Source: Gammaproteobacteria bacterium (GTDB lineage: Bacteria; Pseudomonadota; Gammaproteobacteria; UBA6429; Thiohalophilaceae). From it: a stretch of 64,000 nt of DNA. The DNA is taken from the NCBI GenBank assembly GCA_016194635.1, contig JACQBC010000011.1:1-64000 (forward strand), given 5' to 3'. Below, in pieces: positions 55,380-57,350 of this stretch. The notes below the pieces were generated by a model, which saw nothing but the letters and a program-made list of their open reading frames with translations, was not told the origin of the DNA and did not search any database. Each line of letters begins with the position of its first letter. Position 1 is the first letter of the stretch. A program made the translations under genes and the position numbers.

Positions 55380-56951
55380 CTAGAATCGAAATTCGTATTC
55401 CACTGTAACCTTGAGCGTTCCGTTTGGTGCGGCCGTGGAAATACCCACTAAATAACCCAGTTCGTATTTCCACTTACTATGATTGGATTGGGTGATTTCA
55501 CCGTATAGTACCGGCCCAAGACGATGATCTTGTTGATCGGCGGGTAGCGGATGACCGAATTCGCCGATTTGCCCGTAGATTTCAAACCCCGGCTCCAGGA
55601 TCGGGGTGTATAAATATTTCGTGCGCCAGGCATATTCTACTTGAGTAGCATTACGGGCGTTGCTGCCGATTTCGCGGGCAAAAATTATATTTGCCGTATG
55701 CACGAATTTGCCAAGCGTTTTTTCCAAAAGTAATTTGGTTTCAAGGGCGTCACTGCCGCCGCTCGCTGTAGGGTGTTCATATTCAAGGTATACACCGACA
55801 TCCACCCAAGCTTCACCTTGTTCAGTCAACTGTAGAATATTTTCCCACGCGGTGGCGCTGTGCTCGCGTGCACCGCCGGGTTGTTTTTCGTACTCACTTA
55901 CCACCGAGCTAAACCAGTGATCGGTGAATCCGTAACCGACTTCCAGTTTAGTGGTTTCCTGGGCATCTTTGCTCGTGTCGTTGTCAAAGCTACGGTGGCT
56001 ACGCATTTCAATTTCGATTTCCCCGGCCTCGACTCGCGGTGAATACACCTTGTGGCTTGCCTGCGCCGGTTCGGGATAACTTAAACTACCCGACAGGATC
56101 AGCACCATCATGGCCACGGCTTTTGAGGTGGTGCGCGTCGTAGTTGTAGGTGCGGGCGGGTTTACGAACCGAGTTAATATCAGAATGACAATGATCGTCA
56201 GGCCGTAGGCCAACAGCTGAATTCCCATGGGTTGATCCAAATAGCCTAGGGTAATGTGGAGAAACTGACCGAGGACACTTTGTTGTGACAAGATAAACGA
56301 GCTATCCCAGACTTGATTGCCCAGGGCGGGTGCGATATTGGCTTGAACCAGAAAGCCGGCGGCTTGTGCAGCCAAACCCGCCGCTAATAATATGATCAAC
56401 CAACCGGTGACGCGGAATAATTGCTGTAACGGGACACGCAATAGTCCAAAATACAATACCACGCCGATCAACACACCGCTGCCGGCACCGATTAAGGAAC
56501 CCAGCAGCATCGTGGCGCGGTCTGAACCCGCCGTGGCAATGCCGTACAAGAATAAAACCAGCTCGCTGCCTTCCCGTAAGATCGCCAGCCCCACGATAAC
56601 GGCCAGGGCGGTCGGCGCTTGTTCACCGGCAATAATAGCGGCACCCACACGACGAATATGCTGGCTGATCTGACTGGAATGTTTGCGCATCCACACCAGG
56701 TGCCAGGTGAGCATGATCACCGCCGCGGACAAGATCCCGGCGTTCAGGATTTCTTGACCTCTGCCAGACAGGGCATTGCTGATGTGTTCAGCAAATAAAG
56801 CCAACAGCCCCGCGCCGATAAGACCCGCGGCTAAACCGGCTAGGGTCCAGCGGATCCGGCCTAACATACCGCGGGTGGCGGCGAGCATCAGGCTGATAAT
56901 CAGGGCGGCTTCTAGGACTTCACGAAATACAATAACAAGGGTGCTTAACAT
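55380..56951 (-). CDS. FTR1 iron permease fused to a secreted barrel-like domain
   Basis: 523 residues. Residues 1-265 are an FTR1/EfeU-type permease with about seven helices and both iron motifs, REVLE (10-14) and REGSE (126-130). After a Thr-rich linker (268-275) an internal signal-peptide-like segment (KAVAMMVLILSGSL ... PAQA, about 277-298) has a cleavage-type AQA-S site. Residues 299-523 are beta-rich with alternating patterns and end in YEFRF, a terminal Phe as in outer-membrane barrels. The frame is continuous; I see no ribosome site before the internal Met pair. The first part imports iron; the last part may be released across the inner membrane. It ends the Fur-controlled operon. Confidence 0.82.
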   Translation of the reverse strand: MLSTLVIVFREVLEAALIISLMLAATRGMLGRIRWTLAGLAAGLIGAGLLALFAEHISNALSGRGQEILNAGILSAAVIMLTWHLVWMRKHSSQISQHIRRVGAAIIAGEQAPTALAVIVGLAILREGSELVLFLYGIATAGSDRATMLLGSLIGAGSGVLIGVVLYFGLLRVPLQQLFRVTGWLIILLAAGLAAQAAGFLVQANIAPALGNQVWDSSFILSQQSVLGQFLHITLGYLDQPMGIQLLAYGLTIIVILILTRFVNPPAPTTTTRTTSKAVAMMVLILSGSLSYPEPAQASHKVYSPRVEAGEIEIEMRSHRSFDNDTSKDAQETTKLEVGYGFTDHWFSSVVSEYEKQPGGAREHSATAWENILQLTEQGEAWVDVGVYLEYEHPTASGGSDALETKLLLEKTLGKFVHTANIIFAREIGSNARNATQVEYAWRTKYLYTPILEPGFEIYGQIGEFGHPLPADQQDHRLGPVLYGEITQSNHSKWKYELGYLVGISTAAPNGTLKVTVEYEFRF

Positions 56952-56958
56952 TCCAACC

Positions 56959-57288
56959 TCACTTTACAACCACGTTGCCCTTGGCCGTAGCCTCGTGGAA
57001 TTCACCCACGAACGGATACGTTCCCGGCGCCAACGGGCCGATATAGATCACGGCTTGGCTATTGCCCAGGATGACTTTTTCACGGTGTAAAAGATGGCTT
57101 TCAAACTCTTCAGGAGTGGGATCAAGATTTTTCACCACGAATTTGACCTTGGTATTGGCCGGGATCACTATTTCAGCGGGCGAAAATTGATGGTCCTGAA
57201 GTTGAAGTTCAAAGCTGGGTATTTCAGCGGCATAAGCGCTTGCCGCGCCGAGGTAAGCAAACAGGGTAATCGTGGTTTTGAACGGCAT
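56959..57288 (-). CDS. Exported cupredoxin-like protein
   Basis: 109 residues with a signal peptide (TTITLFAYLGAASAYAAE) and a cupredoxin-type fold (QLQDHQFSPAEIVIPANTK, VKFVVKNLDPTPEEFES, PGTYPFVGEFHE). Key copper ligands are not complete: there is no Cys near the usual site, though two His follow ESHLLHREK. It is similar to the EfeO N-terminal cupredoxin domain that partners FTR1 permeases. It sits 7 bp before the permease gene, in the same operon, behind a Fur box. Confidence 0.9.
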   Translation of the reverse strand: MPFKTTITLFAYLGAASAYAAEIPSFELQLQDHQFSPAEIVIPANTKVKFVVKNLDPTPEEFESHLLHREKVILGNSQAVIYIGPLAPGTYPFVGEFHEATAKGNVVVK

Positions 57289-57323: not shown

Positions 57324-57350
57324 ATAATGATAATGAGAACAGTTATCATT
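57324..57350 (-). promoter_or_regulatory. Fur box before the iron operon
   Basis: The sequence around ATAATGATAATGAGAACAG is followed by TTATCAT, giving repeated GATAAT-type hexamers in the arrangement of Fur sites. It lies about 36 bp upstream of the cupredoxin start, so iron repression of the cupredoxin-FTR1 operon is expected. Confidence 0.78.

Follow-up and report, generated by a model that had tools for sequence, protein, structure and literature searches.

In the 64,000-nucleotide stretch of DNA analysed here (the window), one uninterrupted frame encodes an FTR1 iron permease, a signal-peptide-like hydrophobic segment and a predicted outer-membrane β-barrel (Table 1). On balance, we favour the view that this is a natural polyprotein from which signal peptidase I cuts both an iron permease for the inner membrane and a dedicated iron channel for the outer one, and that the arrangement has repeatedly arisen or been lost in several phyla. 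That the one chain would be split by signal peptidase I into a permease of the inner membrane and a barrel of the outer appears quite likely to us; that the barrel conducts iron we rate no better than even. The sequence-only reading had suggested such a polyprotein as a source of both permease and outer-membrane partner, and the conserved junctions and the barrel model described below support it, with cleavage into two products remaining an inference. There is no experimental evidence; processing and location rest on conservation and structure prediction.

Table 1. Features of the cupredoxin–FTR1–barrel locus in the window.
Feature	Position	Strand	Basis
Fused ORF: FTR1 permease + putative internal signal peptide + predicted outer-membrane barrel	55380..56951	(-)	523 aa, single frame
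FTR1 permease part, residues 1-260, 7 TM, REVLE + REGSE	56172..56951	(-)	Pfam FTR1; motif conservation; full-length-model helices
Cytoplasmic linker (inferred) + internal signal-peptide-like segment, residues 261-298	56058..56171	(-)	conserved AxA; (-3,-1) fit
Predicted mature 12-stranded outer-membrane β-barrel, residues 299-523	55383..56057	(-)	AlphaFold2; fold matches; amphipathic strands
Periplasmic cupredoxin, operon gene 1, 109 aa, EEFES acidic motif	56959..57288	(-)	Pfam Cupredoxin_1 E 8.4e-29
Fur-box-like site GATAATGAGAACAGTTATC	57329..57347	(+)	41-59 nt 5' of cupredoxin start

The N-terminal part of the frame matches Pfam FTR1 (PF03239) over residues 1-258 (E 1.5e-37; 129.9 bits against a cut-off of 25.3). 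Its REXXE motifs lie in transmembrane helices, REVLE at 10-14 and REGSE at 126-130, and all 27 fused proteins in the alignment conform to R-[ED]-x-x-E at both, which bears out the earlier identification of a complete inner-membrane FTR1 carrying these two motifs. Iron transport by this part is inferred. Lysine plus arginine counts along FTR1 obey the positive-inside rule for a cytoplasmic C-terminus, from which a topology of seven helices with the C-terminus inside is inferred. The linker that follows is basic (mean of 3.1 K+R and 0.4 D+E in the fused proteins), and the fit of the whole charge pattern, linker included, to this topology is one reason for reading the frame as a polyprotein.

A hydrophobic segment with an AQA-S cleavage site had been noted before, and the alignment upholds it. 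The junction has a basic n-region, an h-region at about 279-291 and AQA at 296-298, followed by S299 (AQA|SHKVYSP). Alanine occupies 296 in 21 of the 27 fused proteins and 298 in 25 (column entropies 1.26 and 0.46), the intervening position 297 is free (3.18) and the columns 263-295 are variable, mostly between 2.1 and 3.4. Judged from the alignment, conservation of 296 and 298 around a free 297 is the pattern expected of the signal peptidase I rule and not of a structural helix. The (-3,-1) rule with alanine at -1 is met by all 27 and by 12 further fused junctions scored by eye from printed sequences (39/39), the site being shifted by one to four residues from its commonest position in a few; that it holds in every junction with -2 free and divergent surroundings supports the polyprotein reading. 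So does a homologue from the window's family (L008), in which FTR1 ends after the eighth hydrophobic segment and the barrel and the AxA site are both gone. An AlphaFold model of the full-length protein (27 rows) has pLDDT < 50 over the linker at 267-299, which is too weak for judging cleavage.

The C-terminal domain had been described as β-rich, ending in YEFRF and barrel-like. AlphaFold2, given 79 aligned relatives, folds these 225 residues into 12 antiparallel strands with pLDDT 96.7 and pTM 0.90, and the full-length model reproduces the same 12 strands. Outer-membrane barrels rank top among the structural matches in the PDB (FapF, Z 21.0; a COG4313 channel, Z 20.9; autotransporter barrels; KdgM). 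A non-barrel fold, which would have refuted the sequence-only reading, is thus contradicted by both the model and its structural neighbours. The strands are more hydrophobic on one face, weakly so for strand 4; facing was set by hydrophobicity without use of coordinates, and the face predicted to point inward carries 26 acids and 10 bases among 69 positions. Six acids are invariant or nearly so (E17, E19, E74, D88, E222 and E224 in barrel-model numbering). The barrels of most relatives, like that of the window, end in F or Y, which fits a C-terminal aromatic β-signal. The high-confidence model, its outer-membrane neighbours and the hydrophobic-out, acidic-in strands all argue for the polyprotein reading, the fold being predicted with high confidence and the outer-membrane location inferred. 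No significant Pfam or NCBIfam match was found for the window residues past FTR1, so that the barrel constitutes a new domain family. Separate-gene relatives give below-threshold Pfam matches to outer-membrane barrel families, and a PDB sequence search using the barrel profile gave no matches.

The closest structural relatives of the barrel, the COG4313 (Phenol_MetA_deg) channel Pput2725 (PDB 4rl8; PMC4493636) and FapF (PDB 5o65; PMC5557850), also have 12 strands and align with Z of about 21 over 208-215 residues, at only 10-12% identity. PF13557 (Phenol_MetA_deg) does not match the window protein, and a distant member of the barrel family (L047) reaches 16.9 bits, below the cut-off of 22; the structural Z to a COG4313 channel is 20.9. 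The lumen of Pput2725 takes in the first ~14 residues of the chain (PMC4493636), and the window barrel likewise has about 15 conserved residues before its first strand. Unlike COG4313 channels, it has an acidic inward face that is not suited to hydrophobic ligands. Other small outer-membrane barrels that it resembles are the 12-stranded porins KdgM and NanC (Z 17-18) and PcoB (PDB 7pge), described as a copper transporter, with a lower Z of 12.2; identity is about 10%.

The fused gene lies 7 nt downstream of the cupredoxin gene. The Fur-box-like site ahead of the latter agrees with the Fur consensus at 15 of 19 positions, a score that none of 100 shuffles reaches, and similar sites (shuffle p<=0.01) stand 5' of the cupredoxin gene in 30 of 75 related loci; the presence of Fur boxes here and in relatives speaks for the favoured reading as an iron-uptake system. 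The EEFES motif of the cupredoxin is near-invariant in 86 relatives and resembles the acidic site, comprising Glu77, Glu78 and Glu80, at which the EfeO cupredoxin domain is proposed to bind iron (PMC9174327). FtrB-type cupredoxins are proposed to be ferrous oxidases supplying FTR1 permeases (PMC11966278). The operon is like the FtrABCD, P19-cFtr1 and EfeUOB systems (permeases FtrC, cFtr1 and EfeU) in its FTR1 with REXXE motifs, its iron-responsive control and its periplasmic cupredoxin partner (FtrB or the EfeO cupredoxin domain; PMC11966278, PMC9174327). It differs from them in what it lacks and in the fused outer-membrane barrel that it adds. A profile search finds a single FTR1 copy in the genome, and P19 (PF10634), M75 (PF09375) and DyP peroxidase (PF04261) have no match anywhere in it, so neither a complete FtrABCD nor a complete EfeUOB system is present: P19-type FtrA is absent, the operon having only a cupredoxin and FTR1, and the M75 domain of EfeO and the DyP peroxidase EfeB are unmatched. 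No dedicated outer-membrane component of FtrABCD- or EfeUOB-type systems appears in the accessible portions of the two sources, and the sources consulted do not describe how iron passes the outer membrane in cupredoxin-FTR1 systems. A literature search for an FTR1-barrel fusion or outer-membrane partner, confined to open-licence papers, returned nothing direct, and this absence is weak evidence.

The fusion is not peculiar to the window. The full frame recurs in the same genus (G001, 69% identity over residues 1-523), and three further genomes of the window's family (G015, G035 and G008) carry it. In a class-wide sample, 43 of 369 genomes have barrel homologues, some in frames of ~520-540 aa with FTR1 and others in frames of ~240-280 aa. 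Together with 12 found by a phylum-wide search, the 27 fusions of the first sets bring the total to 39 distinct homologues with the fusion, all on independent contigs. Their sources are Gamma- and Alphaproteobacteria, Omnitrophota, Dadabacteria and one family of another proteobacterial class (f207); some carriers are short MAG contigs, so that an individual phylum assignment may reflect misbinning. Separate-gene versions, which the sequence-only reading had left to be sought in relatives, do exist. The usual unfused form is a three-gene run cupredoxin-FTR1-barrel, in which neighbouring genes often overlap or are separated by a single stop codon and the barrel has its own signal peptide. The occurrence of the fused frame in 39 homologues alongside such operons is further ground for the polyprotein reading. 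An unrooted barrel tree (80 rows) has at least seven changes between the fused and separate states, and two loci of one family, L034, whose separate genes overlap in different frames, and L035, which has the fusion, are sisters with 100/100 support. For these two reasons the fusion is taken, from sequence comparison, to have been gained or lost repeatedly, and the direction is undecided on the unrooted tree.

Several loci depart from these two layouts. L008:1453-2400 looks like a secondary loss of the barrel, and in another genome of the family (G030, L019:685-804) only the last 40 barrel residues are in an open frame, which may be a vestige of the gene or reflect an error in the MAG. The fused gene of L083:2583-4168 is frameshifted; its contig is titled Klebsiella pneumoniae MAG, its nearest tree relative (L062) Gammaproteobacteria bacterium, so that the L083 record may be misnamed. 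In Aromatoleum toluclasticum, cupredoxin and FTR1 are followed by two diverged barrel genes in tandem (L084:3327-5060). On a Hydrogenophaga sp. PBL-H3 plasmid (L031) the barrel locus occurs twice, about 20 kb apart, and an in-frame TAG interrupts the barrel gene. At L117:2494-4429 and L118:5209-7044, cupredoxin-FTR1-like-barrel operons lie directly 3' of apparent response regulator and histidine kinase genes; their FTR1-like proteins are diverged (RETLE / RDTLP replacing REVLE) and escape the Pfam FTR1 search, which suggests a degenerate or repurposed permease.

The proposed path of the protein can be set out on this basis. The FTR1 part would enter the inner membrane as seven helices with its C-terminus in the cytoplasm, the topology being that inferred from charge. 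The basic linker and the hydrophobic segment would then act as an internal signal peptide, forming an eighth helix that runs in-to-out. Signal peptidase I would, by the (-3,-1) rule, cleave after AQA298, so that a short eighth helix stays on the permease and the barrel is freed; the barrel would then pass to the BAM machinery for insertion in the outer membrane. The conserved N-terminal KVYSPxV would perhaps tuck into the lumen in the manner of COG4313 channels, and if so would presumably require a freed N-terminus. Ferrous or ferric iron may cross the outer membrane through the acid-lined lumen, the cupredoxin would bind and perhaps oxidise it, and FTR1 would move it inward via its REXXE sites, all under Fur control. 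The simplest model, in which cleavage, localisation and iron conduction are all inferred, has one Fur-controlled operon provide three parts: an iron channel in the outer membrane, a cupredoxin in the periplasm and a permease in the inner membrane. The fusion would supply the two membrane parts at a fixed 1:1. A precedent for such processing is the fbcH cytochrome b/c1 polyprotein of Bradyrhizobium, where an inner-membrane protein is followed by an internal signal peptide and a signal peptidase cut gives two proteins. Both of those remain in an inner-membrane complex, whereas the second product of the window gene would reach the outer membrane.

That relatives have separate genes is what one would see if a sequencing, frameshift or binning artefact had joined two of them, but with 39 distinct fusions on independent contigs and the near relative alike over its full length this is scarcely conceivable. 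Chance, frameshift or assembly error, named beforehand as a possible refutation, is excluded by these homologues, the frame being conserved in the same genus and in other families. The use of a separate start was the other refutation named. Reinitiation or coupling at an internal start would produce most of the barrel with an ordinary N-terminal signal peptide, the fused form being a by-product, as the overlapping FTR1 and barrel genes of separate relatives, each with its own start, might suggest. A junction ATG led by a Shine-Dalgarno sequence does occur in four of the 27 fused genes (L006, L022, L054 and L061), far fewer than the 19 of 38 separate barrel genes so equipped. In the window, none of the candidate in-frame starts (codons 283-287 of the stop-to-stop frame) has a Shine-Dalgarno sequence, and the signal peptide that they would give lacks a basic n-region. 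Another four of the 27 (L024, L026, L028 and L063) have no ATG, GTG or TTG at all 16-45 codons before the cleavage site. We therefore hold a separate start to be unlikely. With no usable internal start there, some carriers at least must derive the barrel from the fusion, which favours the polyprotein reading, and going by the sequences the majority probably do. Slightly less likely again is that the hydrophobic segment stays uncut as an eighth transmembrane helix, the β domain remaining tethered to the permease, either in the periplasm or attached to the inner membrane. Fused genes always have linker and segment in one translation product with the permease, and the barrel-less L008 retains the eighth helix; an uncut segment, however, accounts neither for the site rule kept in 39/39 nor for homologous barrels that exist alone with signal peptides. 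A 12-strand barrel with an amphipathic, lipid-facing surface is also unfit for the periplasm, and because only ~20 residues separate the h-region from the first strand in the full-length model, an uncut chain could not span the periplasm to reach the outer membrane.

The role of the barrel is less settled than its release. It may be cut and reach the outer membrane and yet serve another metal, a hydrophobic ligand or a structural partnership, a possibility that we do not favour but give real weight. Its structural neighbours include channels for hydrophobic molecules and an amyloid exporter (FapF), and some genomes that lack an above-threshold FTR1 (G318, G043 and others) have distant barrel homologues or cupredoxin-barrel pairs, so that the link between barrel and FTR1 is not exclusive. 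Also against an exclusive link, the FTR1-like genes of two lineages are diverged. L119:4558-5691 and L120:4871-6006 are two such cupredoxin-barrel pairs. By eye, the neighbours of stand-alone barrels include no consistent partner. Conserved luminal acids are common among outer-membrane barrels and are no proof of metal conduction. Against a role unrelated to iron stand the persistence of the operon with cupredoxin and FTR1, the Fur boxes and the polar, acid-rich inward face.

Our best reading is that the barrel is an outer-membrane partner of cupredoxin-FTR1 iron uptake that had gone unrecognised, iron conduction being inferred. It offers a concrete candidate, with a conserved operon, for outer-membrane iron passage in these systems. 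If the cleavage is confirmed, a single gene would feed both envelope membranes through internal signal-peptide processing, which would bear on the way in which insertion into the inner membrane, signal peptidase and assembly in the outer membrane can act successively on one chain. The locus represents a new variant of FTR1 iron transport, extended by a candidate outer-membrane component and by an inferred polyprotein for two membranes.
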